A DNA stretch of 64,000 nucleotides from Styela clava. Its lineage: Eukaryota; Chordata; Ascidiacea; Stolidobranchia; Styelidae. The notes beneath the pieces are model-generated. The model was given only the letters and a program-made list of their open reading frames with translations. It did not search any database and was not told where the DNA came from. Positions within the stretch are counted from its first letter, which is position 1, and each line of letters opens with the position of its first letter. The stretch lies in assembly GCF_964204865.1 (NCBI RefSeq), contig NC_135251.1, positions 19,406,001 to 19,470,000 of the forward strand. The letters run 5' to 3'. Below, in pieces: positions 3,556 to 50,000 of this stretch. The translations under genes were made by a program, and so were the position numbers.

Positions 3556-4106
3556 TCAACTTGAATTAGCTGAAAGATTTATTAAAAAATAAATACAAGC
3601 ATGGCCACTTTTCAAATCACTTACTTTCTTCCATATCACTTGCTTCAAGAAAATCTGCGAATCTTTCAATTGCATCATCCATGCTGATGTCATGCTAGAA
3701 AATTTAATATGGATATAATTAAGATTTTGTATGTAATTGTACTCAGTATATTGATTAATAATTATTAATTATTATTAACAACTATTATATAGTGTAAAAT
3801 TCGAAGCAAATAATATCTAGAATCTCTAGATCAATTAACAGTAGAAACCAGCATCAAGAAATTTTACCTTTTTTACTCTTCACTTAAATTTATAAATTTT
3901 CGAAATTTCATGCAAATATTTATTTTAAATACTTATTTGTCCTGATGATAACATTTTCAATTTTTTCTTTCACTCACAGAGACACTGCTTTTTGCAGTAA
4001 GAGCTGGTGTATGCTTTCCGGTAAATGGCTTATACCACCACGCATCAGCACAGTTCGTCATCGTCAATGCGATTATAAAAAATACGAGCGCTCCTCTTGT
4101 ATCCAT
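3556..4106 (-). CDS. Gene A: divergent styelin-like secreted peptide precursor
   Basis: Minus-strand exons: 3978-4106, 3625-3694 and 3556-3569, giving about 70 residues. Exon 1 starts at 4106 and encodes a hydrophobic signal peptide (about residues 1-22, ending ...NCADA), then a short cationic and aromatic stretch beginning WWYKPFTGKH. It ends at a good donor (GTGAGT). Exon 2 keeps frame (acceptor CTAG, donor GTAAGT) and is acidic, with the helix-like pattern DDAIERFADFLEAS, which resembles the pro-region of genes C and D. Exon 3 adds four codons and a stop. The layout of signal peptide, cationic peptide and acidic tail is that of styelin-type antimicrobial precursors, and three paralogs lie downstream on the same strand. 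It lacks the separate second cationic exon of the others. The last exon is very short, so the 3' end is the weakest part. The antimicrobial role is inferred. Confidence 0.6.
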
Positions 4107-6285
4107 GCTTCGAGTATCTAAAACGAAATGTTACATTTGAAAAAAAATTAGGTATAATATTTTTAGAAATAATTAACACATTTATTACGATAAAGAATTC
4201 GCACCAGCGTAATGTGTCGTAACTTTTTTATTATGTTCGAAACACTATAATATTTTCAGTTCTGCATATTCTATCCAATACAATACATTGTATGATTTAC
4301 GCTTTGACTAAAATTGAAATCGCTGATGCCCAAATAGTTTTTGCCGCATAGCTACTAATATTCCACCACGTTTGTGAACGTCTTCCCCAGCAACATACCT
4401 GGTACTAACTTTGCTTTGAAGTTCCTTGAAGTTTATTGAAGGTCACCTTTTGCTTTATATAATTGCGTTGTAACAAGATTAGGAACAATAGTTTAGTACT
4501 TCGACATTACGTCTTATATATCTTCAAAACCTTAGTTTCCAGATGTTAGATTAAACAACAGGAATGTGGGTATTTTTGAATATAGTTACGTATGCGGTTA
4601 GATTTGAATAAACTATAAACGACATATGTTACCTGATATTTACTCGTGAATATCAAATAAGCCATTATCCCCACAGAAGCACAGAAATAACCCATTGGCA
4701 ATACTGAATCCCGGATTGTACATTACCGGAACATCGTGCGTCGCATGCACAAACGATGCGGAGTTGCTGAAGTGATTACGTCACGAGAAAAAACATATGG
4801 ACTTTACTAATAGTAGGCTTTACTAATTACTTTAGTAGGTTACTAATATTTTTGTTTCATTGCATCTGCTTCGTGATTTATGCAAAGTATTATTTTGATG
4901 GGACTTCAGTGTTGTATTAATTAATCTTCCACTAAATGGTTCAGTATGATTCCCAAAATAACTGAATATTATTCAACCAAAATGTGAAAACTATCTCTCA
5001 AAATTCAAAACAAATTATTTTAATAATAATGGTAAAATAAGATTCTTCACTAATTTATCAAAACTGATAATTTTTACATAAAGCACCCTGCCGAATGGCA
5101 TTGAATACGGATCACAGCCAAAACAGATTTTTTTTCTCAAAATTCGAAATATGAAAGAGCGGGATAGGAATAAAATTTTGTAAAAAAAAATTATGACGTT
5201 GGATATGATTCTTTAATAAGCAGTATGATTCAGTATTTATATTATGCAAATTAATATATTTGTATACTCTTGATTATAAAAATCAATTGTGCACGGAGTT
5301 ACTGTCGGCTAAAAGTTTTTCATTTTAATACTCAATTTTGTAGTAGTTCAATTCGATTAAATAAATGTAAAAATTGAATTTGAAATAATAAAAGTTTACA
5401 AATAAGATTAAACTAAATAAGACGTAAGCTAGAGAAGAAAAATATATTTTTCTAACACGTCTAATTTTTGTTGCAAATGAAGGATATGACTATAAAATAA
5501 AAATATGTATTGTTCGAAATGCACAAACAAAAAAAAAACTTGAATTAAATTACTTATGCTGTCGTTTTTCATTACTTTAAGTTTTGCAAGTTTATACATA
5601 GTTAACTAAATAATGGGTGATCATTCATTCGTTCAGTGAATCATTTTAAATCGTGTTTAGGTAATGTCATTCCAGTTCACGCAAGTTGAAAAACGTGAAG
5701 TGAATAATTATGTCTTAAATAAGATCAATATGTGAAAATATATACAGCTTGATGTAAAACGTTCATCAATTTTATTTCAGCATTTGTAAATTTAGCCCTT
5801 TGAAGTTGTTTTCGTGTTGAAGCAATATGTTGCTATTTAGGTGGTCATCACGCTATTGGGACATACTTTGATTTTTCGATGTAATCGTACTTGCTTATAC
5901 GAATTATTTTGAGAGAACGGCCACGCGAGTTCACCACGTACAGGAAAGGATTTCAAAACTTATTGAGGTCATGAGAGTTGTTGCATTTAGGTATTTTTAA
6001 AGTTGAGCACTTCGAAAGTGTATTTATGAATTGTTTTAATAATATATTTTCGTTTTACTTGGGATTACAGTTTTTTTACTGCTTTTCTCTGCAATAAAAG
6101 GAATGAATTATAAATTCCAAAATTTTAATACTTAGAGATGTTTCAAGCCTCTAAGTCTAGAATGATATTAATTTTATTTTCTTCAAATTTTGACCATTCT
6201 TTCATTCTGCCCATATATTTAAACATGACTCTTTCGTGAAAAACAAATTGGCTCGGTATATCAATAATTGATTTATCTACTACAG
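4107..6285. other. Intergenic, no gene seen
   Basis: This stretch between gene A and the first hAT-like element is AT-rich and broken by stops in all frames. It should hold the promoter of gene A on the minus strand, but I cannot point to a convincing TATA box or upstream exon. Confidence 0.35.
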
Positions 6286-7567
6286 CAGTGGTTCCCAACC
6301 TTTTTATTTCGCGACCCCAATTTTCATGAAATCAAAGCCTACAAACACTCGCGACCCCACAAGTAGAAACGTTCAGCAACTTCAAAATTTAGTATATCAG
6401 TTTAATTATCTCAATGGGAACAAGATAACAACTGCATGTGGACGTTGACGGTAAACATTTTCCCAAAAAACATACGAACGAGTCCGACAATGCCCCGGGT
6501 AATTGGGGAAACCTCAGAATATTTGATAACACATGGCAGCGCATGAAAACCACGGTGTAAATATCTGTTAGATTATAATTAAAACGGTACTTTGGCAAAA
6601 TATACACGAACTTGATAAAAGGTTGTAGATTGTAAGGAACAATAGTAAGATTGTTTCTGAACATAAATTTGAAATCCTATTTAGTACCTATATTCCAACA
6701 GTGTCTTTTTTATTTTTAATTCAATATCAACATATTACAGATTGCTCCATTATTAATTCGAAAGTAAAACAGAACATGAGAGTAAAATAGGAAAAAAACG
6801 TGTACGGGATCACATCATTTAATGGCCTTTTATAATGCTAGCTCGAAACGTTTAAAAATTATTTATGAAACGTCTAAATATATAATATTGCAATGAAACG
6901 ATGTGGACGAAAACACGAAGCATACTCGGAGATTTTAGACACGCGCGCGATTTAACAAAGCACTTTCGCAAATGATCGAAGCCTGAAGTGTGACACCGCC
7001 TGGCAATCAATGCCATACTTGCCAAACACCTAATTAAGGGCCAATCGCCAAATCAAGCGAAGCTGCTTTGTATATTCGATAACCAAGCGGCTACACTGGT
7101 ACAAAATTACAAACCAACATAATTTCTCGCAGCCTGGCACAAAATCCGGTACGCGTACCTGCGGGCGGGACACTGGCTTAGCCTGCAGTTGCTCGTGAAT
7201 GAAAAGAAGATACCGAACGTCACTCACTCATTCGGATGTAACATGATCAAAAAAGCTATAAAACGGAAATATTATTGGCGCTCGTAAAACTCTTACAAAA
7301 TTACATTTACTGATACCTACCACATGAATGTTTTACCGAGCGATTTTGACGCCCTTTGGACTATAAAAGGTCGAGTTATTGATGAAAACAAGGTCATTTT
7401 ATCCGAAGTTAGGCACTTTTCCGGTACCTGCCGACTATCACCAATTTCACTTTCCAACTTTCAAATTCAAGTCATTTGTGTGCGCATATTTGACAGAAAT
7501 TGGGCGACCCCGGAAAATCTTCACGCGACCCCACTCGGGGTCGCGACCCACAGTTTGGGAACCACTG
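6286..7567. mobile_element. hAT-like non-autonomous element, about 1.28 kb
   Basis: The element begins CAGTGGTTCCCAACC and ends in the inverted sequence TTTGGGAACCACTG. Just inside both ends lies the motif CGCGACCCC and its complement. It is flanked by 8-bp direct repeats, tactacag on the left and tactatag on the right, with one mismatch. CAGTGG-type ends plus an 8-bp target duplication are typical of the hAT superfamily. Small ORFs inside resemble no transposase, so it is a non-autonomous copy. Confidence 0.8.
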
Positions 7568-8012
7568 TACTATAGAACGCTGAGACGTTCAGTCGGTTCT
7601 TCAGGTAAACATGACACACTTTTGACAGACACTGTTGCTATGTATTCATTTCTTTTGCATCTTTTTTAAATAAAATTTCACAAATGATAAAATTATTTTT
7701 AACTGTGAAAATATTTGTGAGAGGAAATTGTACGCTATTCTATTTTTAAACTGAATATCATACTCCGACACAGCCAAAAGGTATGGAATGACTACTAACT
7801 ATAACTATAATTGTTCTATAATTACTTGGAATATTGATAGATTTGGTAATTTTATATTAAGCAAAGGGCTATCTTTAACGCCCCGCGTTTGAGTAATAAT
7901 ATCACATGTTCATATGCTCTGTATAAGTACGTTTTTTTTTTTTTTTTTTGAAGTAGCTCTTTCAACAAATTAAAAAACACGAGGTATCGTCTTCAAATCT
8001 AATCAGCACATT
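7568..8012. other. Intergenic, no gene seen
   Basis: The short gap between the hAT-like element and the 3' end of gene B holds a run of about 19 T near 7931-7949. No exon or RNA gene is visible. Confidence 0.35.
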
Positions 8013-8017
8013 TTATT
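8012..8017 (-). terminator. Poly(A) signal of gene B, overlapping the stop codon
   Basis: On the minus strand the AATAAA hexamer overlaps the TAA stop of the last exon (the protein ends ...KSKE). It is the canonical cleavage and polyadenylation signal in the expected place. Confidence 0.5.
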
Positions 8018-9893
8018 CTTTGGATTTAAGAAGGCCGTGCAGCGCACGTGCCATTGCTTTTTCAATCTTTCCATCATCCCTGGAAACCTTTACGTAGTCA
8101 TCATCAGTCATGGAATTGAATTCCTCTGTAATAATTGAAGCATTTGAAAATTCTACTGGATTAAAATTTATTATAAATGAACTCAGTAGGTTGTAAACAA
8201 CTTGCTTCTTTAACATTAAAGCAAATGAATAAACATGCATCAACATTCTAAATGCTAGTATTTCCTCTTAAAACTTTGTCTGTCATTGACAAATCGTTCG
8301 AATTTAGGTGTGTCCCACATAAAAATTAAATTATTCTTTTGCGTATTCTTGCTGAAAAATTTTCTCATAGTATCAGCGACAATACCATAGACTTTCGGGT
8401 CAAATTTGGAGATTTGCGTAACCTTTAAATATTAAACTTTAAATTTGAGCGAGTATAAATTTTTTTCAAATTATCTCCTCGAGTCTGTCGAACTCCATAT
8501 CACTCTGAAGTTGAATATGTAGGTAAATATTTCTTATAATGGGTAAAACTTCGTATATTTTCAACAAAAAGTCTTGGTAAAGTTACGTTATTATGTTTTT
8601 GCGCAAATTGAAAAATAAAATTATGTGTGATTGGATTGGAAGTATTTATTAATTTCACTGTACTTCACAAAATTTGTTACGATTCAGTATTCTTCCTCTT
8701 TCAAAACTAAATTCTATTTACGCTGGAAGGTGATTTTAAAGTAAGGCATGCGGCGTTAGGGTCAGTTAGTTGAATGCCTCATAATCTAGAACGTTACAAA
8801 CGTTTACAAATATTTATAAATTTTGATTTTACATGGTACAAGCTTATCATGGCAAGGTGTAAAATGTTTTTTTGTTATATGTAAGTGATCAATACTGCCA
8901 ACAAAATGAAAAGTATGTTTTTAAACAACTAACGTATATGAAATCATGCTGAAAAAATTTCAATGGTTACCATTTTTCTCAGTAAACGGATGTTGTCTCC
9001 AAACCACCAATTAACAAGTTTGGCTGCGCCATGTACGACTCTGAACATTCACAAATTTTTAAAACATTTTTTGTGCTATTACATCTACATATGCATTTTC
9101 GGAATAGATGGCATCAAAAATAATTGCCTATAGTGAATATTCGACCCATTGTTCCATATTCCAGTTGACGAAATCACGATTCATGATAAATAGTACTATA
9201 GTGCTATAGCAAGAAACTTCAAACAACTTTTTCAAAACATATCAAAATTTAATTAACACGTCTAATTTCGAACCATCGTTTTCTTAATTTACACCAGCAA
9301 ATTCCAATTAACTTTGATACTTTGATTAACTTTGGATACTATACCCGTGTCAAACAATCAACCATGAGCGATTGAATAAAGCAAAACAACAAAACAATTT
9401 CGGCAAAGCACCCTGAAAGTTTCCCGATTGGTAATATCTAGAGGTGAAATGGGATTTCTCATGAAAGTATCCCTATTTTCAAAAAATGTTTAAAAAAGAC
9501 AAAAAAAGATTAGAAGATTAGGCTTTAAGATAGTAAGATGAAGATAGAGAAGATAATGACTCTGCGGTATGTGGCTATTATTTAGCCGTTTTTTTTTTTT
9601 TAGTGCTTTTAGAATGGCCTGGTATAATATCATTAGACGATCATAATGACAGGCAGTGTAGATTCCCATTGCTTCCAATAAAACCAAGTCTTCGCATCAG
9701 TTTGTATATATTCTCATTGCCTACCATGAAATATTTCCAAAATCACTAATATTGCGGGTATGAGATAAATTTGGTATGTGTATTATTGAGAGATTGAAAT
9801 AAAGCAAATATCTTACTTTGTCAACCAACCGTGTGTTTCGTGAACGGCCATCATCGCAATCAGCACCACTAAAACAGTAATTGTTGCCTTCAT
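8013..9893 (-). CDS. Gene B: styelin-like antimicrobial peptide precursor
   Basis: Exon 1 (9817-9893) encodes a signal peptide of about 21 residues, then GWLTK split at a GTAAGA donor. Exon 2 (8971-9040) fits the phase, completes the Lys codon and gives VVHGAAKLVNWWFGDN then IRLLRKM. Its end matches the IRLLRDM end of exon 2 in gene C. The mature peptide would be about 28 residues, cationic and Trp-rich, with a G-W-L start like known styelins. The last exon (8013-8125) has exactly the same length and phase (113 nt) as exon 4 of genes C and D, and keeps the EFNSMTDDDY motif. The middle is uncertain. The exon-3 homologue at 8466-8504 (SDMEFDRLEEII) hits a TGA after 12 codons. An alternative exon at 8386-8422 joins in frame to the last exon. 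The product is therefore either about 61 or about 98 residues, or the gene is decaying. Confidence 0.6.
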
Positions 9894-10207
9894 CTCGCTT
9901 TCAAGAATCACAACTATAATAAAAATAATATTTAAAAAAATTACAGCAATCAACAGTGACAGCATTCTTAATCTGATAAATTTTGGATATTTTTTACAAT
10001 AAACAAGTAGTATAAAACTTGAAGAATGTGAACCGCGGACTTCAAACAAAAATAACAAACTATTGCTAGTGTTGTAAGCAAAAAATAAATATTTATTCGT
10101 TCTCACATGCGATTAAATCGTTTATATGGCAACATGATAAAAAGAGACAGACTTTCAATCGTCTGAACTTATCGCACACATTTACAGCAACAATATAAAA
10201 TACCGAC

Positions 10208-10271
10208 CTTTCTTCTTTGCTGCAATGAAAAATTACAAGTGCTAATGACAACAACTAGTCGACAATTTATA
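10208..10271 (-). promoter_or_regulatory. Candidate promoter and non-coding first exon of gene B
   Basis: On the minus strand a TATAAA box at 10271-10266 is followed by about 60 nt ending in AAGAAAG and a GTCGGT donor at 10207. A strong acceptor (TTTTATTATAG) lies just before the ATG exon of gene B, at 9914. A non-coding first exon with its intron would fit. The same block is copied at 17410-17415 in the duplicated segment. No transcript evidence is available. Confidence 0.35.
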
Positions 10272-12859
10272 GATTTGGGTCTGTACAGGATATCCTCACT
10301 TATGCTAATAAATTTGTTTACTATTTTAATGCATTAAAAATGAATTATGTTGGCTTGAATCAAATATTCACAGCATATGGTTTTATACCACCATACACTA
10401 ATTTCCGTTAAGCAGTAAAAGGAATATTATCAAAATATCATATTGCTCATATTTTAATTCAATAGAGTGGTGGAATGGTTTTGAATATAATAAGCACTTT
10501 GATCATTATTTATCAACCATAGCACGGAAGCTTACTGTGCGCATATATCTGAATAACTGATAAATGAATATTTTAGTATAATCAGTATCAAGTATAACGA
10601 TAATTTACTTGAAATTCTAATGACAAAATCTGCAAACAATAGATGAATCAAAGTGAAACGCACTTTTTATAGAACAAAATGCATTTTTATTTGAAATAAG
10701 TTTGCATTTCATGCAAAGTCTTATTTATGTTAAGAAAGATAAAGAACTTCAAAGGATGTTTTTAGCCTTATATTTATATTGTTTTTAAATGTTGACTTGT
10801 CCTATCTATGTCCTAATTGCTGGCCAGGAGTCTTTAAACCTACCTGACCAACTCATATTTACCCATCTACATATTTGAATATCTGGTTAAACTGCTGAAT
10901 TCGAATTAAATCCCTATTGGTGCTCAATCCATAAGTCAGCGTATTCATTTTACAAATATGGATATATTCGATAAATAACAAATAAATTACTTATTTTCAA
11001 TCAACAATTGAAAACATTTGACTTGTGACGCGGGAATAAAGTGACTCTAATTAACCTTGGACTCGAACTCAAAATTTTCGGCGACGGATGTTTTGAAAAT
11101 GAAGATTTAAGTTTTGAAATGTATTGCCAAACAGATTCAACTAATGTTGATAGGTGTTTACTTGTCGTTGATCTACAAAAAGCGTAGGAAAAAATATTTT
11201 ATGGGCAGGAGAATAAAAACCTCGGTCCTACAGAGGCACGTTTGTCCCTCATTATTATCTATCACGACATCTTTGGTCATGTATTGTAGAAGACACTTTT
11301 GAGTATATTTACTACACATTACAAAAATTTACTATAAAATAGCCGATGCCAAAATTTCCCCGTGATTAGGACAATATAACAAATACACTGACTACTTGTA
11401 CGATTGATGATGAAATACAAACGTTCACTACATTTCCAAATGCAGGAACGTTGGCAACATATTTCCCGCAGTAGAGGAAAAGTATTCATTCAAGTGAGAA
11501 TTTTCCACAAAATTTAGATGAAGTTGGAGATATTATGGAATTCCCCATTTTCAATATTTTATTTTCGTTATTATTGTCCAGCCACCAAGCCATTTAAGCT
11601 ACGCCGTTACAAAACCCACGAGTGAGGAAAGCATAATCATTTAATTTATTTTACTGTCGGTGACTCTGAAAAACCGACGATAATTTGTGGAAAGACATTT
11701 GTCAAAGCACTCTGCTTTGTTTGTGCTTTGAAAAGAATAAAATTTCCGGTTCTATATTATATTCTGACACTATACTTAGAGTTTAGGTTTATGGACGGGA
11801 TATGATTTGAAAATACAATATGACTAATCTAAATACCAGAAACGAATTCATGGGAACGCACGTTTCATGCAAATAATGTATCGCACCTTAGTTGGTGTTA
11901 TTCGGTTTTACCGAATTTATTTAACATTCACTCCCAAATCGGCCCGGAAGTAACGAAATAAAATTTTGTTCTATTTTTTTTTTTAGGACTTTTGTTATCA
12001 GTTGGCACTGATATCTCACGCATAACATGTGATACTTACATTTGAAAAAAAAACGGAATCTTCCCAGTTGGGCGTTTTTTACACTCAATTTATACACTAG
12101 CCGAGATGTGTTATTTGCAGTGCCAACACGATTACGTCCGAATGCTTTGTCCGCTATGACATCGATTAAGTCATAAATTAGGTTCGAATTTTCTGTCCAA
12201 ACTTTCAAATGTAGTCAAAATATCATTTGTTTGTTCAGATCCGACCTAAAAACCAGCATCTTCTATTATATTCTATTGCAGGAAAGTATTTTGGGGAGAT
12301 TTTGTATGAAAAATCTATCTGCTTTGAATATACATTATCTAATAATCTTTTGCGACTTTTCCAAGATATGATACGAAATGTCTTAATATTATACTTTAAA
12401 TATTTATGGCCTACTCAGTCTAAGCGGTGCAGAGACACAAGTAATTCATTTTTTCGATGCCAAAACGAGATCCCACAGTAACCAACCTGTACGTGCCCAT
12501 TTAACGACGTAAATGAAAAAACTCAATATTCCAATTATAAAAATTAAGCTTTATTTTCAGAATTATCCACACAATTTTGTTGTAAATTTTATTAATTATT
12601 CAACTAATTAATGCTATAATTACGTTTGATATTTCTTTAGAATTCTTAATGATTTAAGAAAGATGTCCGTTAGAGAGGTATTGAGAAGTCATAAATGCAA
12701 TATGTTATCCAGTCGGAAGACTTGAAAAAGAAAAAGTACAGAAGTATTTTTTATGTAAAAAGATCACATCCAGTAATACAGTAATAGAGAGTTGTCTGCT
12801 ACCGAGTATAAGAGTTCTTTTTTTCTAAATCATCGTTCAATGTATTATAATATTATGAG

Positions 12860-13911
12860 TTAAAGCAATTTTTCGAGCATTTGGTTGAAAGAATCCATCA
12901 TTTCCACGTCTTCTTTTCTCATGCCATTGGACACCATTCTGTAGTCATCCTCAGTCAGCGAAAAGAATTCATCTGTTTGAACCACACAAAAAAAACATTA
13001 TTTCTACTAAACACATTTTAAAGGTGATTTTTTATTCTATTATTTTCAATCAGAATAAACAAACCAACCGTCACTGAGATTTCGTGCACTGACAATCATA
13101 TCTAGAAATGGTTTGGTCTTTATTTCTCCGAAATCTGCTTCCAAGCTTTGTTTCACGTCTTGAAGAATTTGTTCGAATTCAAAGTCATCCTAAACGAAAA
13201 AGAATTAAGCTCATCTGCCATGATTTAAAAAAGACAAAATGGTAATGCTGAAATGTGTGAATGAAAAGGTCGCAGTTTCGGCACGGTATAGCAAGCATTA
13301 AATATTAATCATTTTAATACAATAACACAAATAGGCTCAGTTTTGAGTTTGATTAAAAAATCGAATGAGTTAGAACCGTGATTAAACTGCATTAATTGGG
13401 GCATTAATTGGGGGTAATATGCGTGTATTTTTTTCTAAATACACTTTTGTAAATAATTAATGTCAAATATCAAAATATAAACGAACATGTTTGCTGGAAA
13501 ACATAATTTTTTTCTAAATGAATCTTAAAATATTACCATGTCTCTCAAGAGGCGAATATTGTCCCATAAACTTACAGCCTTCACCCCTATTCCAACCACA
13601 GCTTTTGTAATTCTGTAAATATACATTGGTTATTTACGTAAAATGAAAACCCTCATTTTAGACCAAATTTTATATTTTATGTCCATTGTGGTATCATATA
13701 TCAAAGCATATTCCTTGTTAATGAATGGAAAATAAAACAGATTGGAAGACAACCAATATACAATCTAAAAGTAAGAAACAGTAAAAATAACATACGGATG
13801 GCGAATAGCTTTCTTTGTCCAATTCCATGCTCTTCCCCACCAGCCAGCATCTGTATTTTCCACAGCCAGTACAGTAATAAATATTACGAGAAGAGTTGTC
13901 GCTGCTTTCAT
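12860..13911 (-). CDS. Gene C: styelin-like antimicrobial peptide precursor (141 aa)
   Basis: Four minus-strand exons with matching phases: 13796-13911, 13537-13612, 13069-13189 and 12860-12972 (426 nt, 141 residues). Residues 1-22 form a clear signal peptide (MKAATTLLVIFITVLAV..., cut after ...NTDA). The mature part starts GWWGRAWNWTKKAIRHP and continues through exon 2 (ITKAVVGIGVKAVSLWDN, then IRLLRDM). That makes about 42 residues, cationic and amphipathic with Trp near the N-terminus, as in Styela clava styelins, whose signal peptide is also 22 residues. Exons 3 and 4 encode an acidic pro-region of about 77 residues (DDFEFEQIL..., FFSLTEDDYRM...) likely removed on maturation. The donor after exon 3 is a weak GTTGGT, conserved in gene D. 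Expression in haemocytes and membrane-disrupting activity are inferred from family resemblance. A possible non-coding exon ends at a GTAAGCAT donor at 14526. Confidence 0.85.
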
Positions 13912-16501
13912 GATTCAATAATATGCTTTATACATAGATACAAGCAAATACGGTAGAAGACTTTAGATGTATGAGAACACAAATGCTATAGCTGTTGAGA
14001 AATGTTATTTCGTCTTGGTGTTAACATGCATTCGTAAAAGAAAAGGAACTTGTGATATATGATATTAACTGAATAATTCCAACATAATTTGGTCAGACGG
14101 AACGTTACAGAAATATGTTTATATTAGTGTGCAGCGAGACTCTTGGATAAATATATTCAATCTTGCTGTAGCATCCTTGTATCATAATATGCATATGAAA
14201 CCACCGTCACAAAAGCATAGAAGAGTGTAGTAGTTAGTCCCACAGAAACCAAACCATGGCGCAAGGTAGAATTTTCCGTTTTTGTATTCGTGCCATGCTT
14301 TATTATTACGATATCATGTACATAGTACTTATTATGAACGTTTCAAAAGTATAAATTGAATAAATCTATTTTATTTTAGATATGTATTTAAATAAAATTC
14401 TCAAATAGTTCCCAACCGAACATTAAAATGTAATGAACCCCTTCTGTGCTTTCAGCAATTCAGCATAAAACCATTTGTCACTATGCATTGAGTTACGAAT
14501 AGGTTGAGAAACACGAACATGCTTACTTATAGAGCCTGGAACATGGGAAAGTACGGAATCGGAAAGGTCAGGGAAGAACATCCTGAATTTGCATATAAAT
14601 ATTTATTACTGACACTAAATATGATACGAAAAGTTGCACCATTGACGAAATACAAAAGATAGCGAAGGTACTTCCGTGACTTCAATAAATAGCGTTGCTT
14701 ACAAAATATTGTTGATTTTGCAGCTTTCGTTTCATTCAACGCGGGAGTAGATTTGGTGATAATCCCAATATCATGTCCCAATGAATGTATAATGAATAGT
14801 AAATTTGAACAAATATTTTCATTTTTAAAAACATCATACTGTAGCAGGCATGATTACAATTCTTATTCAAGAAACTTGGCTTTGTATATTAGTGGCAGTA
14901 TTTTTATTAAACGACAAACCGCACTGCTGTTAACCTCAAAGGGTTCACTTAATCGATTGTTTGGACGGTTTATTAAATTTTCATATTAGCTGTATTACGG
15001 GTGAACGCATTCTTCGTTCCTCATCAAGTTAGAAAACTTAAGGATCGCCTTTAATTATGGAAATATATTTATGTATACGATGATGATGTATAAAGAATTC
15101 GAATCTGAGACAATAGAACAATGGAAACACTTTCTAACGAAACAATAAACTGAAGCAAATACAGAACCTCACTTTTATAAAGCTTATAGGTATTGTCTTG
15201 CGAGAGTAATATCCTACAGGTGCCATATGGCCTATCAGCAACATGCAAATGTGAACGGCATTTTCCGCCATAAGTTGCGGGTATTCTCTGATTTTACGTC
15301 AATATGTAATCCATTATTGCTGATCATTTTGATATTCTTAGAGGTCCCGGTAATATAGATTGTGTTTCTGTATAATGTATATTTTCACGAACTAAGATTC
15401 TCGCCACACCGACGACGCCTACTTTTATGAACTCATGTCATTGGTCGAAATCTAAATGTTCTCGAAATCTCGTTGTCCTAACATAATTGTTTGATAATGT
15501 TAGCTCCAATTTATCAATGTTAGATTTGTTAAATTTTGAAAATACTTGAATAACTGTGTCCTTCAACTGAAAACTTTTATTTGCACAGTATCCTCACTTA
15601 ACTTAATTATCATATGACCAAGAATATTCCTAATATCAAATATTTAATCAACAATGGAAGTTTGTTGCTGAAAATGAATAAAAATTACCAATAGCAATCA
15701 TATTGTTTCTGGTGATAAAGAGGACAAGTATATTCTTATAAAAAAGACAAGAGAGCGATGCCCAACTATAAGTATACCATAGCTAAAACGAAGTAGTGAG
15801 GGTATGCAATCTTTCCCAGTAGACGACCGGTACCGCAGTCGCCTGACCACTGAGGCGAACGCGGAACCGCCACAAGGTGCGCAATTTGTATTTTTATTAC
15901 GTCATTGCATAAAACAAAACGAATCGCATGGAGCTCATAGTGATTTCTGGTATAAATAAACGTCATAGCCTTCTAGTGAAAAAGACAATCTTTCACCACT
16001 CAAAGTTTCCCAGTAATTGGTCCACTAGTTAAAGAGAAATACGCCAAATGTCTATTTGCAAACTGACTGAATTTTAGAATTGTGCAATTACACAAGTACG
16101 TTCTGTCGTGGGTATTTCGTTTCAATTCATTTACTGAAAATTATGCTAATTCTGTAATATCTTGCATATATTAAAAATATTTAGAAGATCGCCATTGACT
16201 TCATTAATGCAATGAATTATTTTTCAATATGTCATGTGTCGCAACGTTACATTTAAAAAAAGCTTAATATACTTTTATTTTACTGTGCTATTTTTGCTTT
16301 TATTGAATAGAAGACCAATGTTTTTTGAGTAGTGACGAGTATTTTTTGCAAGATATAGACAACTTTGTCTCTTATTTTATAAATTATTTTTTAGTACCTT
16401 TGTATTAGGTAAAAGTAAAATTTGTTTTCAATAATCAAAGTTGACAAAGTTGCTTAAGATATTGGCCGGAAAAAAATTCATGTTTTGAATATATATTATG
16501 C
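13912..16501. other. Intergenic, 3' diverged part of duplication copy 1 and a repeat
   Basis: To about 15310 this is the diverged upstream flank shared with gene D. It includes a GCTTACTTAT block (14521-14530) that could be the donor of a non-coding first exon in both copies. A dispersed family-S repeat follows at about 15770-16050. No coding exon is recognised. Confidence 0.4.
15770..16050 (+). repeat. Dispersed repeat family S, copy 1
   Basis: The sequence shares with other copies (33962-34260, 38040-38450, 43640-43860, and reversed at 26470-26800 and 39430-39660) the blocks CGCGGAACCGCCACAAGGTG, CGAATCGCATGGAGCTCA and a CCTTCTAG...CAATCTTT...ACCACT stretch. Other copies end in CAA repeats, absent here. 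It is SINE-like by size and dispersion, but I could not assign a parent RNA. Confidence 0.6.
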
Positions 16502-17116
16502 CAGCGTTTCTCAAACTGTGTGCGCGACACACTAGCGTGCCGTGATAGATTCTCAAGTGTGCCGCGAAGCTTTTTGGAATTTTAGAAAATATGCTATTTG
16601 TATTACACATAGGCATCCATGCAACGGGCAAGCTTGTGAGGCCCGAGTATCCATAATTAATTAGACTGACAATATTATAACATTTGCCTTGTCGTTGTAG
16701 TAAGGGGATTGTTTTGGTATACGGTAATTGTATTGTGATGTCATAATGTTTTGTAACATGATGTCCACCTTCCACCGTGCTGAACTGCTGACTTGCGCGT
16801 TCAGTTAGGCAACAGGAAAGCAAGTTCTGGCTATCTGCTTACAAATTATATTCAATCATCGGTGCAAAGGTCATCAAAAGAATCTAGCCATCCTGCCATT
16901 TGCATCTCCATGGCTCTGTTAACGCGTATTTTATGCTCTGACTGAAATTGAAAGCAAAAAAGGGGCGACGGAACCTCGTTTCTATTGTTTCTCAAAACAG
17001 GCACGCACATTATTTGTAGAATAATTTGTTCAAGTCCCACATTTTTTGACAAGTGTGCCGCAAGATTTTTTTATTTGCTCAGTGCGCCGCGAGCAAAAAT
17101 AGTTTGAGAACCACTG
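16502..17116. mobile_element. hAT-like MITE with perfect 8-bp target duplication
   Basis: The element runs from CAGCGTTTCTCAAACT to AGTTTGAGAACCACTG and is flanked on both sides by the identical 8-mer tattatgc. Just inside the ends are GTGTGCGCGACAC and TGCGCCGCGAGC. It is 615 bp without a transposase. A 131-codon minus-strand ORF overlaps it but looks like chance. It sits just left of the second segmental duplication copy. Confidence 0.85.
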
Positions 17117-17509
17117 TATTATGCGCTTATCCAAATAAGGAATAATGCTATTTCTTCGCAGCAAATATCTCAAAGACAATATTATTTAGAGTTGGGAGGA
17201 CATGACAGCGTGGCAATAGTTACGATTTGCTCATGACTCAATCCCACTTTAAACATGTACTCTCAAATCGCACCTAACCCGACGAAATAAAAATTTCTCG
17301 AATTTTCCTCGAATTCCTCAACACATTTACAGTGCAATATAAAATACCGACCTTTCTTCTTCGCTGCAATGAAAAATTACAAGTGCTGACGACAACAACT
17401 AGTCGACAATTTATAGATTTGGGTCTGCGCAGGATATCCGCATTTATGCTAATAAATTTGCTTACTATTTGAATGCATTAAATGAATCAATGAATCAATC
17501 AATTGAATA

Positions 17510-17860
17510 AATCAAATATTCACAGCATATGATTTCAAACACTAATTTCCATTAAGCAGTAAAAGGAATATCATCAAAATATCATATTGCTCATATTTTA
17601 ATTCAATAGAGTGGTGGAAGGGTTTTGAATATAATAAGCACTTTGATCATTATTTATCAACCATAGCACGGAAGCTTACAAGCTCGAATGAATCAAATAT
17701 TCACAGCATATGATTTCAAACACTAATTTCCATTAAGCAGTAAAAGGAATATTATCAAAATATCATATTGCTCATATTTTAATTCAATAGAGTGGTGGAA
17801 TGGTTTTGAATATAATAAGCACTTTGATCATTATTCAGCAACCCTAGCACGGAAGCTTAC
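17510..17860 (+). repeat. Local tandem duplication, 181-bp period
   Basis: The block starting AATCAAATATTCACAGCATA and ending GCACGGAAGCTTAC occurs twice in a row here (17510 and 17691), but only once in the other duplication copy (about 10358-10535). It arose after, or was lost since, the large duplication. Confidence 0.85.
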
Positions 17861-20010
17861 AGTGCGCATACATCTGAATAACTTATAAGTGAATATTTTA
17901 GTAAAATCAGTATCGAGTACAACGATAATTTACTTAAAATTCTAATGACAAAATTTGCAAACAATAGATGAATCAAAGTGAAACGCACTTTTTATAGAAC
18001 AAAATGCATTTTTATTTGAAATAAGTTTGCATTTCATGCAAAGTCTTATTTAGGTTAAGAAAGATAAAGTACTTCAAAGGATGTTTTTAGCCTTGTATTT
18101 ATATTGTTTTTAAATGTTGACTTGTCCTATCTATGTCCTAATTGCTGGCCAGGATTCACCTTTGAGTCCTTCAACCTACCTGACCAACTCAGATTTACCA
18201 ATCTACATATTTGAATATCTGGTTAAACGGCTGAATTCGAATTAAATCCCTATTGGTGCTCAATCCATAAGTCAGCATATTCATTTTACAAATATGGATA
18301 TGTTCGATAAATAACAAATAAAATACTTATTTTCAATCAACAATTGAAAACATTTGACTTGTGGCGCGGGAATAAAGTGACTCGGACTCAAACTCAAAAT
18401 TTTCGGCGACGGATGTTTTGAAAATAAAGATTTAAGTTTTGAAATGCATTGCCAAACAGATCCAACTAATGTCGATAGGTGTTTACTTGTCGTTGATCTA
18501 CGAAAAGCGTGAGAAAAAATATTTGATGGACAGGAGAATAAAAACCTCGGTCATACAGAGGCACGTTTGTCCCTCAATATTATCTATCCCGGCATCTTTT
18601 GTCATGTATTGTAGAAGACACTTTTGAGTTTATTCACTACACATTACAAAAATTTACTATAAAATAGTCGATGCCAAAATTTCCCCGTGATTAGGACAAT
18701 ATAACAAATACACTGACTACTTGTACGATTTCTGATGAAATACAAACGTTCACTACATTTCCAAAAGCAGGAACGTTGGCAACATATTTCCCGCAGTAGA
18801 GGAAAAGTATTCATACAAGTGAGAATTTTCCACAAAAATTGGATGAAGTTCCGATGATAATTTGTGGAAAGACATTTGTCAAAGCACTCTGCTTTGTTCT
18901 TTGAAAAGAATAAAATTTCCGATTCTATATTATATTCTGACACCATACTTAGGGTTTAGGTTTATGGGCGGGATATGATTTGAAAATACATTATGACTAA
19001 TCTAAATACCAGAAACGAATTTATGAGAACGCACGTTTCAGGCAAACAATGTATCGCACTTTAGTCGGTGGTATTCAGTTTTATCGAATTTATTTAATAT
19101 TTACTCCCAAATCGGCCCTGAAGTAACGAAATAAAATTTTGTTCTATTTTTTTTAGGACTTTTGTTATCAGTTGGCACTGATATCTCACGCATAACATGT
19201 GGTACTTACATTTAAAAAAAAAAACGAAATCTTCTCAATTGGGCGTTTTTTACACTCAATTTATACACTAGCCGAGATGTGTTATTTGCAGTGTCAACAC
19301 GATTACGTCCGAATGCTTTGTCCGCTGTGACATCGAGTAAGTCATAAATTAGATTCGAATTTTCTGAAAAGTCCCAACTTTCAAATGTAGTCAAAATATC
19401 ATTTGTTTGTTCAGATCCGACATAAAAACCAGCATATTCTATTATATTCTATTGGAAGAAAGTATTTTGGGGAGATTTTGTACGAAAAATCTATCTGCTT
19501 TGAATATACATTATCTAATAATCTTTTGCGAATTTTCCAAGATATGATACGAAATTTCTTAATGTTATACTTTAAATATTTATGGCCTACTCAGTCTAAG
19601 GCTAAGCGGTGCAGAGACACAGGTAATTCATTTTTTCGATGCCAAAACGAGATCCCACAGTAACCAACCTGTACGTGCCCATTTAACGACGTAAATGAAA
19701 AAACTCAATATTCCAATTATAAAAATTAAATTTTATTTTCAGAATTACCCACACGGTTTCGTGTAAATTTTATTAGTTATTCAACTACTTAATGCTATAA
19801 TTACGTTTGATATTTCTTGTCCGTTAGAGAGGTATTGAGAAATCGTAAATGCAATATGTTATCAAGTCGGGAGACTTGAAGAAGAAAAAGTACAGAAGTA
19901 TTTTTTATGTAAAAAGATCACATCCAGTAATACAGTAATAGAGAGTTGTCTGCTACCGAGTATAAGAGTTCTTTTTTTCTAAATCATCGTTTAATGTATT
20001 ATAATATGAG

Positions 20011-21040
20011 TTAAAGCAATTTTTCAAGCATTTGGTTGAAAGAATCCATCATCTCCACGTCTTCTTTTCTCATGCCATTGGACACCATTCTGTAGTCATC
20101 CTCAGTCAGCGAAAAGAATTCATCTGTTTGAACCACAAAAAAAACATTATTTCTACTAAACACATTTTAAAGGTGATTTTTTATTCTATTATTTTCAATC
20201 AAAGTAAACAAACCAACCGTCACTAAGATTTCGTGCACTGACAACCATATCTAGAAATGGTTTGGTCTTTATTTCTCCGAAATCTGCTTCCAAGCTTTGT
20301 TTCACGTCTTGAAGAATTTGTTCAAATTCAAAGTCATCCTAAACGAAAAAGAATTAAGCTGCAGCTGCCATGATTTAAAAAAGACAAAATGGTAATGCTG
20401 AAATGTGTGAATGAAAAGGTCGCAGTTTCGGCACGGTATAGCAAGCATTACATTGTAACCATTTTAATACAATAACACAAATAGGCTCAGTTTTCAGTTT
20501 GATTAAAAAATTGAATGAGTTAGAACCGTGATTAAACTGCATTAATTGGGGGTATCGTGCGTGTATTTTTTTCTAAATACACTTTTGTAAATAATTAATG
20601 TCAAACATCAAAATATAAACGAACATATTTGCTGGAAAACAGAATTTTTTTCCAAATGAATTTTAAAATATTACCTTGTCTCTCAAGAGGTGAATATTGT
20701 CCCATAAACTTGCAGCCTTCGCCGCTATTCCAGCCACAGCTTTTGTAATTCTGTAAATATACATTGGTTATTTACGTAAAATGAAAACCCTCATTTTAGA
20801 CCAAATTTTATATTTCATGTCCATTGTGGTATCATATATCAAAGCATATTCCTTGTTAATGAATGGAAAATAAAACAGATTGGAAGACAACCAATACACA
20901 ATCTAAAAGTAAAAACTTACTTACGGATGACGAACAGCCTTTTTTGTCCAAGTCCATGCCTTCCCCAACCAACCAGCGTCTGTATTTTCTACAACTAGTA
21001 CAGTGATGAATATTACAAGAAGAGCTGTCACTGGTTTCAT
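20011..21040 (-). CDS. Gene D: styelin-like antimicrobial peptide precursor (141 aa)
   Basis: Four exons on the minus strand: 20925-21040, 20675-20750, 20218-20338 and 20011-20123. Each has exactly the length and phase of its gene C counterpart. The signal peptide is MKPVTALLVIFITVLVV... ending NTDA. The mature part starts GWLGKAWTWTKKAVRHP and continues with ITKAVAGIAAKAASLWDN and IHLLRDK. The replacements relative to gene C (Trp to Leu, Gly/Val to Ala) should give a more helical, Ala-rich core. The acidic pro-region is nearly identical to that of gene C. Exon 1 differs from gene C at about 20 of 116 bases, whereas intron 1 and the later exons differ at only one or two per cent, pointing to partial sequence exchange. 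The function is inferred by likeness to styelins. Confidence 0.85.
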
Positions 21041-34100: not shown

Positions 34101-37100
34101 ATTGCCATAGAGCCCACATATCTTTTCTAAAATATATAAAAGTAATAATCTTCTAGCGACTCGGAACAACAATCTTCATCTACTGAATATTTTAAAAGCA
34201 ATTGGTGTAGTAGGCGACTTTTTTCACGACAACAACAAGAAAAGAATGTAACAACAACATCATAATAACGAGATTATCGGTCAGAGACCGAAGACTCATC
34301 GATCGAAAGTTAGGGGATCCCCCAAAACAGCGCTCTTACTCCATAGTGACACCTTGATTAAAATCGATAAGTAATAACAAAACGCTCCACTGGTTCACTT
34401 CGTGTTCAATAAAACTCATAATGTGTTTTAAAGTATAGGAGACTTGTTCGTATAATCGTTGACAAATATTACATATATATTTTATCAGAAGACGGAACAG
34501 GCATTTCCGACTCAAATGAAAATATGTAGAAAGTATGACTTGAACAGTATATGCTTACGAACATGCATATAGGTGACATTATGCAATAATTCTAATAAAA
34601 AACGTATTACGTTTAAAATGCTATTTATTTAATGCGACCTTCATTGTTATTGGATATTTTTCAGCCATGGAAAAATTAAAACAACATATTTCAGTGGAAA
34701 TAGAAAATAAGATAAAAGAAGCAAATGACACAACCAAAAATGCTGTAGACATGGCAGTATTAAAATCAAAACGAGAAAATGATGAAGGTAAAAATATTCT
34801 CGACAAAAATTTCAAAATTTTGGTGTTTTTTTACAATGTGAATGTGATAAAGCTAAGATGGAATGCTTCATTTTCTTTGCCTTTTTGGAGTATCAATAAT
34901 TCATCATTCATTTAAATACTTTATTAGTACTAACTAATTACTAACCAATATACTCATATTTGATATAGCAATTGAACTGATGAACACCAAGATTCAAAAA
35001 ATGGATGAGAAATTAACATCAATGTCTGATCGGTGTCATTTATCCATTGAAAAACTTGGACAAGATATAAAAACACGTCTTAGCAACATGCAAACAGGTG
35101 GTTAAATTACGAACTTAGTCAATAGTTTAGTGTAGTGGTTTTCAATCGGGATTTTGCATCTCTGGTCCAAAGGTTTCGCAAGTTTCCATTCAAATAAGTA
35201 AGTTTATTTTATTATATATGTGTGTATAGTGTTAAAATATAACCAAATACATATTAGATTTGTCAGTTTATTTTTCACTTATTATTACAACGCTGTAAAG
35301 ATTATTTTGTTTTGCCGGTATTAGGATTGATATATATGATATATTTGTGGTTTATATAATTCAGACAATAAACAAAAATTAACATATTGCACAGGAATTC
35401 CTTTGACTTGTGGAATGTTTCATTGGGGTACTGCTCAACCAAAAAGGTTGAAAACCACTGGTCTGTGGCAGTGCTTCCCAACCTATATGGGTCACGACAA
35501 AAAAAAATGGGTCGGGTTGAGATCTTTTTGAGTCGCTTGTTTTTTTGCAAAAACCTAAAATTACTGGTTTTTCTTTTCTAGTTGATTTTAATGTTTATTT
35601 TATATTCGGTATTGAAGTGTTGCCAAATAGTAATTGTATATGTGCGAAGCGTAAACACTTGGATGCATGTATTTTGCTGTAAGTGAAGCCACACAAAATT
35701 TGCGTCGCTTGAAAAAAGGTTGGGTACCACTAGTCTAAGGTATGAGAAGTTGCATTTATAATGCCTTTCTTAAAGTACCAGTTAAGAAATAGCAGGATTA
35801 TTATGTATAATGAACATTATGATTAAAATATATTCTAGAAAACATAACATTGAATACAGTTGAGATGATGATCGATGCTAAATTCAAAGAAGCGTCGAAA
35901 GATTGGATTAAAAAAGGCGGCGATAGCGATGACGATGTCATATATCTTGACGAAGAGGAATACAAAACACATAACGTTAGCATAACTCGAAGAGGTAAAA
36001 ATTACTAATGGAAAATAATGAATTGAAAGACTATTATGTGATTAAATAGATATTGTAGCAATTGTTAATTACTTTCTCTCCCTGAAAAAGAAACAACATA
36101 AGTGCAATAGTTAAATGAATGTTTTAATTTCTACTCCATACTACATTACATAAGTATTTGTCGTTTTCAGGAACTTTTGCCTTAGATTTTTATGGATAAT
36201 TTTTTTTAAATTGCACTTCTATATTGTGCAGGTCTTTGTAAGCTGTTTTATCAGGGAAAATGTTATTGGGTCATTGAAACGGAATTGGCCATACCATATG
36301 CTAAAGGTACAGAAGAATGTTATGCACAAGGGGGAGAGATAGCTAACGTATACAGTAGTGAACATCTGGAGCTGCTGAAAATTTATCTTCGAAGTCTCAT
36401 ATCTGAAACAAGAATGTATATTGATGTATGGCTTGGAATGACGATCAACATTGAGGTAAAGTTAGCCTGCCAGTTATTTTATGACTCACTTCGTCAATTT
36501 CATTTCGAGCCAAACAGATTTCATGTCATTCCATTCCAATATTATTCCAGTCATGAAGGCAACATCGCTGCATTTTGTGGCACACATTTGGCAGAGTTAG
36601 ACATCAAGTTAGTTAGACTAGATGCCTGTCATAAATTTCAACATTTTGTAAAAAGTACAATGTTTATGGTGATAGTGAAAGAAGTACGTAATTTGGTTTT
36701 CAAATTACTACTTTTTTTTCATTTGATGTCTGCCGGCCTAAATTATCAATTTGAAATATAGAAATATCAAAGATTCTATAAAATCATACAAAAAAATATT
36801 TCATTATTAATTTCTATTAAAGATGGGTAAGACAATCGTTAATAGGGCAAATCTGGAGCAGCACGATTCAAAATACGATACGATTTTTTTTAAATTATAA
36901 TTCATTTTTCAGAATGGAGAAGTTAGATACACAAACGGAACATTGGCGACATTTCTGGAATGGGAGTTAGGATCCCCGTCTCTCGGAGAATCTTTTTTTT
37001 CTTGGACGGGAATCTACGTTATTGCAAAGAAAGATCCAGATGACAAATACGAAGGAATGGTCAATAGTTCCCCACACAGTATTCGGGATGGCGTTTTGTG

Positions 37101-47000: not shown

Positions 47001-50000
47001 TATTTGCAACCTAATAACAAAAAAAGTCAACAGAAGGCCAAGTTTGAGAACCCTGTTTTAGATTTACATATCAATATTTATTTGTTGATCATGAATGAAT
47101 ATCATTTTACATGAAGATAGGAAATTGTCCTAATAACGGGAATCCCCGCATGTGTGTTTCTGAATTACGTGTCTTTCATAAATATTGTGAAAAACAAGCT
47201 GATAAATTACCTCCCATTACACTTAAAGCCACCGTCAAATAGTTATGTGTGTTGATTTCCTCTTCGACGACCAGAGTAAAGTTTTTTGTGACGGTGCCGG
47301 CAGTTGTACTTAGAGAGCATTGATATATTGAACCATTGTCTGTCTTGTTTAAATTGCTGAATTTAATAAAAAATAGGTATGAAAGGAAATTAAAATTGTA
47401 AATTAGAAGAGCGGTGCATTTCGATGGATAAATAGTGGTTTGTACAAGAGATTCGTTTTAGTCTCATTCGCTCTGCTTGATACGATAATAATATTTACAA
47501 CAGGTGAAGAACATAAATCGATCATGAAACAAATCAAGGTCTATCACATGGTGAGACGAATTGGGTAAAATGACTCTCTCCCCGATTTTTGGTGTCTCAA
47601 AAATGTTGTGTCTATCTTGCCCCACGTGTCACACTTGTTCTCCGTTTCCCACTTGTGCCACGTGTTCCGCTTTTCCCGTATGCCACCCTAACTGTCCCAC
47701 GTGTCCTTATCTCACGTATCCGACGTATCACACTTGTTCCACTTGTATTACTCGCACAATATGCACCGATGATACTCGTATTACAAATTAAACGCATGCA
47801 TATATTATTGCATTTGTACTGCTTGTCATCATTCTTTCTATGTGTGTGTCCCATTTACACCGTATGTATCGGCGATAAAAGTGGTATCGGTATATCTATA
47901 AAGTATCGCCATTCTAAGAACGATTTTTATAAATAGTAATTACAATACTTTAATCAGGTATAGCTCGCCTATACGCGAATTTTCTCAACTTTGGACAAGT
48001 AAGGCCATGTGGAGCAAGTTGGACACGTAAAGCAAGTGGGATACGTGGGATAAAGATAACAGGCGTGGGAAACCACATTTTCAAGCCACCTATTTTATAT
48101 ACATGAGTGTCGTGACGAGAAATGGTCACATAATTTATGAATACCCTGATATAAGCTTATTCAAACTAAATTCACCAACATGCGAGGATAAATTGCTTTA
48201 ATAATGAATAGTAGCTAGCGAACGCGAACAAAGTGAAAGTTACGGCTTAGTCACCTGAACATTTATTTCATAATAAATATTGAAATGAGTGGATCATGAA
48301 TCTTGACAAACATTGTGGTACATATATAGTCGAGACAAAATTTCAGAAACGGAAAAAAACTGAAAAAAGTCCTATTTAAATGTAAAACTCACATATATTA
48401 AAACAGAGGTGGAAGCAAAGCTGTGTAGATCTTATCTAGTCTACTGTACGGTGGACCAAAAAATTTTCTACACTCGCGTATCATGAGAGAGGTCGCAGAA
48501 AAGGCGTTCGGAAAAAAATTCGTGTTTAAAAATATTAATATTCTACTTTTAACTTTGAAAACCTGAGAAACAGTGACACTTTCAGCTATATAACATTACT
48601 TTGTTACAAAAATTTACGTACTGTATTGTGTAGGTTGCTGTAAAGTTATCATCTAGTCCGTGATTTGAGATTTGCTCTATTTCTTCTGCAATCAGACGTT
48701 CGCAGTAATTCTTGTTTTCATGGAGTTGCCTTAATAAAATGTTATACAAGTCAGCGTTAGAAGGGAAATCGTAGATGAAGAAATAGGACTAAATTTGGCT
48801 ACATCATCTCTAAATCTTTAGGAAAACGTTCCGTTGCTTACCAGAGAGTATTCGTGGTGTAGTTATAAAGATGTCGATAACCATCTCTTTCTAATATAGT
48901 AATTACTTGTTTTAAAAAGTCAGACATGAGTTAGCTCAAACAGTTGAAAAATCAGAAGTTTGGACGTTGGTATTTTACTATATTTTAATAAACAAACTTA
49001 CGATTTACATTTGTTTGTTGACGATGGTGCTGGTATGCCCAAAAATAATAAACACTTAATTGCCCTTTCCCATTCTCCCACCAAATTGTATCTGTAAAAA
49101 TAATCAGAAATAATTTCAAATGCATCTTCAGCATATCGCGAGCATTTTTTACAGGTGTATTGAGACACAATGAAGTCGAAGCTACTGTTGATTTTGTGCT
49201 AGCCTGTATAATGTATATGGGTAAACGTTTTTGAATACTGGCAATTATATCTGCAAGGCTAAATAGCACAATTGCTGAAAAAAGGAAGGCTCAAAAAAGG
49301 GGGAAAAAATTAGAGTTAAACATTTTGCGATGTTTGACTTTGAAAGCGTGTAACTAATAGAATATATAAATATGGTGACTCTGGCTTTTATGCTAAATTA
49401 GTTATTGATCACAAGACAGAGAGATGCAGGCAAATGTATCTTTTTAAGAATGCATTTATAAAACAATAACACCGTTTCGACATCAATAACGCCTGAGATG
49501 GTGTCATAAATTGTTGCGGACGTTGCCACAAAATAGTTTGATAGTCAATGATTTTGTGAATATAATTTTTATGAACTAATTTATAGTTTCTCTTTGAACA
49601 AACTTCTCAAAAAATGTCTATATACATTTTCAAATAGGTTGGTTGTGAGCAGAAATGGTGATATATTGTCTTAGTGAATCGTAATGTAACGTAAAAATAA
49701 CGTAACGTAAAAACGTAGACATGGCTCGACAACAAGCTACAGAAATAAACCGAATACAAAATTATTCAAATTTGTTTTTACTGCCAAATTTTTGGGCTTT
49801 TCAAATAATCTTTGGTATAAAGTTTAATACTTTAACGTGAATACTCATTTTTTAAAACTATCATTCTAATAGCTTACTCTATTCTTTTGAACGTAACTTT
49901 CTGACTGAGAGACCCCGCTTCAGTACCAGTATGACCGATGCATGTGAAGGTAACGCTGTCTCCTGGTTCGACTTTGTAAACTTCTTGTGTAGGTGTGATA

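Follow-up and report, generated by a model that had tools for sequence, protein, structure and literature searches.

Two intact genes and one incomplete gene for predicted styelin-related, long-tailed peptide precursors in Styela clava, and the scattered family to which they appear to belong

We analysed a 64 kb stretch of the Styela clava genome (hereafter the window; contig label C2:19406001-19470000, from a genome of 376.6 Mb in 379 contigs) and found two intact genes (C and D) and one incomplete gene (B) for predicted secreted Trp-rich cationic peptides, a picture that we consider largely real. Comparison across the genome supports placing C and D as predicted long-tailed relatives of the styelins within a larger scattered family, rather than as styelins in the strict sense. 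An earlier note on this DNA had described four cluster genes, each with a signal peptide, a Trp-rich cationic peptide and an acidic tail; the description holds for C and D, in part for B and not for the fourth candidate, A. The supported cluster is thus one of three genes rather than four, and one of these is incomplete, since the membership of A is unsupported and B is without a recognised exon 3. Probably, C and D are intact long-tailed precursors of styelin-related antimicrobial peptides and an old pair that was recently homogenised, with B as a truncated or decayed copy and A as an unproven member. Computation from the DNA shows the gene models, the family homology, the pattern of divergence and, in this genome, both the styelins and another six loci with relatives.

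C (13911-12860) and D (21040-20011) each consist of four exons joined by GT-AG introns in phases 2, 0 and 1, with an open frame of 141 residues that divides into a 22-residue signal, a 40-residue cationic part running from GW to LLR and a 79-residue acidic rest (Table 1). The end of the signal was set before Gly-Trp by comparison with styelins; in C, small residues precede Gly-Trp by eye. The cationic part has a net charge (K+R-D-E) of +7 with five Trp in C and of +6 with four Trp in D, and the acidic rest has one of -13 and -12, respectively. The pro-region of about 77 residues proposed earlier corresponds to the 77 residues of this acidic rest that lie beyond exon 2 in both genes. In C and D the frame stays open across exons 3 and 4, which a phase-1 intron separates; for B, the candidates examined gave no such frame. 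The exon layout said to be common to B, C and D is complete in C and D and extends to all three in the 113-nucleotide (nt) exon 4, exon 3 of B being the part that does not stand. The exon-4 motif E-F-x-S-(M/L)-T-(D/E)-D-D-Y was recovered as described: a six-frame translation of the 64 kb has precisely three matches to the pattern EF.[ST].[TS][DE]DD[YF], one in exon 4 of each of B, C and D. The peptide starts WWYKPF, GWLTK, GWWGRAW and GWLGKAW and the three (I)(R/H)LLR ends of exon 2 were likewise located where they had been reported.

When the genome was searched with a styelin, with D and then with each new set of relatives, further clusters came to light, and the family now counts at least 21 gene models (B, C and D among them), distributed over eight loci and five contigs. 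Another contig carries three bona fide styelin genes, which give full-length matches of 124-139 bits to Pfam Styelin (PF17562); the peptide of one of them (S3) is identical at 16 of 18 positions to the N-terminal residues determined for styelin A, as given in an excerpt of PMC8719109. A genome-wide search with Pfam Styelin gave matches at C10:16.31-16.34 Mb only (nine at the level of exons, eight of them over the cut-off), and two of 14 control genomes had matches, which were below the cut-off. The clusters of relatives are found at C4:4.84-4.90, C4:7.12, C10:9.04, C3:19.87, C3:16.14-16.19 and C1:5.30 Mb. Several of the first matches to them were weak, with E between 0.01 and about 2, and we kept these only once their exons had been read; three models (C4a5, C4b3 and C1a1) comprise exons 1-2 only. 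The count is a lower bound, since weak matches at C3:23.06, C1:11.07 and C2:1.35 Mb were left outside it. Intron 1 is in phase 2 in 21 of 21 models and intron 2 in phase 0 in 18 of 18; of 17 third introns, 14 are in phase 1 and only those of the three styelins are in phase 0. B, C and D agree in having a phase-2 intron 1 and a phase-0 intron 2 at the end of the cationic part, and A differs. Exon 3 measures 121 nt in nine of 17 models, a length that gene C thus shares with genes at other loci, 61 nt in four, 57 nt in the three styelins and 109 nt in one. The cationic parts encoded by exons 1-2 range in net charge from +4 to +21, and the tails from 12 to 78 residues where exon 3 was found.

These comparisons support a styelin relationship for the predicted products of C and D, more weakly for that of B, and not for A, so that the styelin-like identity assigned to all four genes is retained in part, through profiles, hhalign, intron phases and a common exon-2 end. 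With a profile built from 10 members at four other loci, C scored 50.5, D 51.6 and B 15.3 bits, and none of 2000 shuffles, in which the cationic part and the acidic part each kept its own composition, was as good in any case (best shuffles 18.0, 19.6 and 8.5 bits). A family profile from which the styelins were left out gave 20.9, 24.6 and 8.6 bits, again with 0 of 2000 shuffles as good (best 17.5, 18.4 and 7.3 bits). In a leave-one-locus-out comparison covering 18 of the 21 models (C4a2, C4a5 and C4b3 were left out), 17 models (B, C and D among them) outscored every one of 1000 shuffles; for the remaining one, C3b3, 1 of 1000 did as well. The styelins reached only 13-18 bits in this comparison, which places them among the more divergent members of the family. 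An hhalign comparison of the genome's own styelins with C/D/B returned a probability of 95% (E 2.8e-8). A match to Pfam Styelin itself was obtained with D (11.5 bits) and C (10.7 bits), and with none of six shuffled copies. A PDB sequence search with C gave two matches, at E 1.5 and 5.3, and the Pfam matches HSV_VP16_C, Myticin-prepro and Collagen_bind_2, all below their own cut-offs, were taken as chance.

Table 1. Positions of the gene models and of the shared C/D block within the window
Feature	Position	Strand	Remarks
Candidate gene A, 70 residues	3556..4106; exons 4106-3978, 3694-3625, 3569-3556	-	membership unsupported
Gene B exon 1, 77 nt	9817..9893	-	signal peptide then GWLTK; donor GTAAGA, phase 2
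Gene B exon 2, 70 nt	8971..9040	-	end IRLLRKM; acceptor GTTCAG, donor GTAACC, phase 0
Candidate remnant of gene B exon 3	8466..8504	-	SDMEFDRLEEII then TGA; preceded by CTTCAG; uncertain
Gene B exon 4 homologue, 113 nt	8013..8125	-	
Gene C exon 1, 116 nt	13796..13911	-	signal peptide then GWWGRAWNWTKKAIRHP; ATG, donor GTATGT, phase 2
Gene C exon 2, 76 nt	13537..13612	-	remaining cationic peptide, end IRLLRDM; acceptor TTACAG, donor GTAATA, phase 0
Gene C exon 3, 121 nt	13069..13189	-	first part of acidic tail; acceptor GTTTAG, donor GTTGGT
Gene C exon 4, 113 nt	12860..12972	-	DEFFSLTEDDY... through stop; acceptor AAACAG
Gene D exon 1, 116 nt	20925..21040	-	signal peptide then GWLGKAWTWTKKAVRHP; donor GTAAGT, phase 2
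Gene D exon 2, 76 nt	20675..20750	-	end IHLLRDK; acceptor TTACAG, donor GTAATA
Gene D exon 3, 121 nt	20218..20338	-	acidic tail; acceptor GTTTAG, donor GTTGGT
Gene D exon 4, 113 nt	20011..20123	-	acceptor AAACAG; protein identical to C exon 4
C 3' block (introns, exons 2-4, downstream DNA)	10191..13795	.	about 4% different from D block
Matching D 3' block	17335..20924	.	

The divergence between C and D is markedly uneven along their length. It amounts to 2.1-4.5% in introns 1-3, to 1.8-4.5% across introns 1-3, exons 3-4 and 600 bases downstream, and to as much as 7.3% per 150-base step farther downstream, before the far end of the block; it is 8% in exon 2, 17% in exon 1 and 36% in the 250 bases upstream, with the switch near the start of intron 1, at about 13795. 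Because this break falls just after exon 1, the two genes carry different first peptide halves on a nearly identical second half and tail. Exons 3 and 4 together differ by one replacement and four silent changes (pN 0.005, pS 0.097), and exon 2 carries six changes, every one a replacement and four of these to Ala (Fisher p 0.015; p 0.044 for the rate of exon-2 replacement versus introns 1 and 2). We reject a recent duplication of the whole gene from C to D on account of the far greater divergence of exon 1 and the upstream DNA, and positive selection on exon 1 on account of silent changes that are denser than replacements (signal part pS 0.346, pN 0.082). An older pair whose 3' block (exons 2-4) was later homogenised would explain the pattern better than a single duplication, and exons 2-4 would in that event have been made alike recently via gene conversion or partial duplication. 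Within the D block, 17505-17861 is a 181-bp tandem duplication (two copies, 96% matches) that is single in the C block.

For the products of C and D, we infer expression, signal and peptide cleavage, storage and antimicrobial action, as well as the mechanism of homogenisation. The chain would enter the secretory path and lose its signal peptide before Gly-Trp, and the precursor, by analogy with the family, would be stored with its acidic tail neutralising the cationic Trp-rich peptide. Cleavage behind the L-R that lies close to the exon-2 end, by an enzyme of the furin type or a comparable one, would then free a peptide of about 40 residues which, as in its relatives, would be released and damage microbial membranes. 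The site of the styelin Gly is occupied in C and D by the Arg of R/H-L-L-R, and the sequence before the predicted cut fits R-x-x-R in B, in C and in all five C4a genes.

Gene B (9893-8013) is family-like in exons 1, 2 and 4: against the C/D profile its exons 1-2 score 12.1 bits and its exon-4 homologue 10.8 bits, each with 0 of 2000 shuffles as good, and exons 1-2 alone score 7.2 bits against the 18 models outside the window (2 of 2000). The cut of its signal is less clear, as His, not a small residue, is seen directly before Gly-Trp. No open, in-phase, family-like exon 3 was found among the candidates examined; nine are open and in phase with GT donors, and six of these, all but three of 7-9 residues, were scored against the exon-3 profile, with five below zero and one without a score. 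The segment 8504-8466 is the best of 809 intron positions by ungapped comparison with exon 3, follows an AG and reaches a TGA after 12 codons. Across the window, five of 5835 after-AG positions reach its score, of which three are exon 3 of C, exon 3 of D and the segment itself and two are unrelated non-exon positions. Against the exon-3 profile it scores 1.5 bits, with 433 of 920 listed shuffles as good, and its identity as a remnant of exon 3 is therefore uncertain. B may be truncated, decayed, incompletely modelled or spliced in an unrecognised way. That it is a functional short form of 61 residues ending in exon 3, or has an unrecognised exon 3 or splice, strikes us as possible though doubtful. 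The segment would give it a short acidic end after a 28-residue part, and the styelins are short-tailed too, with 24 residues after exon 2, but the 12-residue end is not above shuffles against the exon-3 profile and exon 1 is shortened to GWLTK. A join of exon 2 to exon 4 is seen directly to be possible in frame at a second AG (CAGAG), and is thought unlikely given the CAG two bases upstream. Moreover, the full-length, open and family-like exon 4 suggests a recent loss of exon 3, and a gene on another contig, C4a5, by eye also without a visible exon 3, is a sign of birth and death in the family.

Candidate A, as a fourth family member, receives no clear support, most tests being not beyond shuffles. 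The shuffles as good number 82 of 2000 with the styelin profile, 1283 of 2000 with the C/D profile and 162 of 1000 in a test of the leave-one-locus-out type; against three family profiles they number 90 (with the profile from 10 members at four other loci, where A has 3.9 bits), 17 and 139 of 2000, of which the 17 alone leans towards membership. A genome search with A returned its own exons only, and its intron phases, 0 and 1 as judged from exon lengths, are unlike those of the family. It is rather unlikely, in our estimate, that A is a very divergent fourth member or else an ascidian precursor outside the family, of the kind that in Ciona combines a cationic with an anionic helix. Its signal-like start, WWYKPF, acidic exon and very short last exon speak for this reading, as do the one profile with 17 of 2000 and an acidic tail similar, judged by eye, to anionic helices that the excerpted part of PMC7387483 lists for Ciona peptides; the other shuffle tests, the want of a paralogue in the genome, the deviating phases and a best 18-residue helical moment of 0.11 tell against it.

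Several observations weigh against the reading of C and D as styelin-related antimicrobial precursors. With the styelin profile alone the margin over shuffles is smaller (C 13.1 bits, 2 of 2000; D 11.4, 1 of 2000; B 5.6, 9 of 2000), and the Pfam Styelin cut-off of 27 is unmet by C and D, with no match for B; for C, the likewise sub-cut-off HSV_VP16_C outscored it. Since C and D fall below this cut-off, we regard them as probable relatives with long tails, not as strict styelins, and the profile search that the earlier note had proposed thus yields similarity to styelins beyond shuffles for C, D and B, short of the Pfam cut-off, and not for A. The translated B, C and D have no KHK motif and no amidation Gly: exon 2 closes with the residues D-M in the styelins and in C, with D-K in D and with K-M in B, and the residue before these two is Gly in styelins, fitting the amidation Gly of the literature (excerpt of PMC8659048), and Arg in B, C and D. 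The counts of intron phases are not blind, as exon boundaries were chosen from splice sites, open frames and homology, and two relatives have GC donors at intron 3. D has H-x-x-R rather than R-x-x-R before the predicted cut, and L-R is present there in only 12 of 21 models. The excess of replacements in exon 2 is based on six changes, which are small numbers. The amphipathicity of the C and D peptides is no better than that of shuffles (322 and 378 of 2000), a test that is of no help, since a real styelin is likewise not above shuffles (300 of 2000).

Some of these points would also fit C and D as family members by descent that no longer act as antimicrobials and instead work as secreted signals or as peptides of the tunic: they are without the C-terminal amidation Gly of styelins, and their net charges of +7 and +6 are modest against the relatives at +18 to +21. 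We regard this as improbable, as these charges are inside the range of the genome's real styelins (+5 to +9), the Trp-rich start and the acidic tail are kept, and the similarly long-tailed botryllin acts on bacteria and yeast (excerpt of PMC9966394). We retain the antimicrobial precursor as the favoured role for C and D.

Seen across the genome, the family is larger than the styelins known as antimicrobials, which have the look of a single branch with short tails. We tentatively posit, below even likelihood, that the long-tailed gene with phases 2-0-1, at eight or more loci, is the main and perhaps ancestral form and that the short amidated styelins are derived from it; that the tail is a conserved functional domain and not charge ballast, as the mostly silent changes between the C and D tails suggest; and that exchange with its break between exons 1 and 2 puts different first halves of the peptide onto common second halves and tails. 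The styelins have so far been a handful of haemocyte peptides; in this genome the related gene models number at least 21, spread over eight loci. The defined gene layout offers a means of locating such peptides in further tunicates, for which simple sequence searches perform poorly, and the family supplies a set of candidate antimicrobials and a system in which to examine the role of the acidic tail and peptide diversification.

Further observations concern the relatives and the rest of the window. The relatives at C4:7117180-7122500 are very cationic (+21 and +18 over exons 1-2) and have the GC donors at intron 3. At C4:4903950-4905600, C4a5 is without a visible exon 3, like B, which by eye leaves its exon 4 homologue in another frame. 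Arg-rich relatives with the start WGRRRRRR lie at C3:16.14-16.15 Mb, where FYKRNRKTIHRVG by eye resembles the styelin KHK region and a botryllin epitope. The genome has one match over the cut-off to glycosyl hydrolase family 6 (35.4 bits), a family that in animals is a mark of tunicates. Between A and B, the interval 6286-7567 (about 1.3 kb) ends in CAGTGGTTCCCAA and its reverse complement and is flanked by the near-identical 8-mers CTATAGTA and CTGTAGTA; it looks like a non-autonomous element of the hAT type. An open frame of 183 residues at 36210-36758 is by eye like the start of a C-type lectin domain, with no Pfam match at E up to 1, and 47179-47457 has a weak immunoglobulin-like match (Ig_2, 15 bits versus a cut-off of 27). 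Rfam at the gathering threshold gave no match in the window.

The kind of precursor predicted here, a styelin-type antimicrobial, is already known, and we consider the long-tailed, dispersed family with a common exon layout to be the new element. No description of such a gene family and, besides botryllin, no styelin-like gene were presented among the matches listed in the open-access literature. The relatives at C10:9.04 Mb and C3:19.87 Mb are similar to C/D in an exon 1 that ends in a split Pro codon, an exon 2 ending in W-D-x-I-x-x-L-R-x-M, a 121-nt exon 3, phases 2, 0 and 1 and a fourth exon of 104-107 nt, and differ from them in their peptide sequences and contigs. The styelins (PF17562) share with C/D the signal peptide followed by Gly-Trp and a cationic peptide spread over two exons with a phase-2 intron, an exon 2 that ends in phase 0 (in C likewise at D-M) and an acidic tail that opens with a D/E-rich stretch. 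Their precursors are described with a 22-residue signal, a peptide of 31-32 residues, a Gly for amidation and a 26-residue tail (excerpt of PMC8659048). In contrast, C/D have 77 rather than 24 residues after exon 2, a phase-1 rather than phase-0 intron 3, a predicted peptide of about 40 rather than 31-32 residues, no KHK, Arg for the Gly before D-M and a Pfam score below the cut-off. The likeness to Ciona Ci-MAM-A, Ci-PAP-A and similar precursors, with a signal, a cationic helix and an anionic helix, is one of plan only (excerpt of PMC7387483). Botryllin of Botryllus schlosseri (GenBank OP851480), compared by description only, is like C/D in its long precursor and in a mature peptide starting with GW, and unlike them in retaining the styelin KHK motif. 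Its precursor, which has 158 residues, 23 of them in the signal and 37 in the mature peptide, is a precedent for the long pro-region, which the earlier note had thought little described. According to the same excerpted source (PMC9966394), botryllin is stored in the granules of morula cells, in which furin is also reported, is released into extracellular traps and is active on bacteria and yeast.

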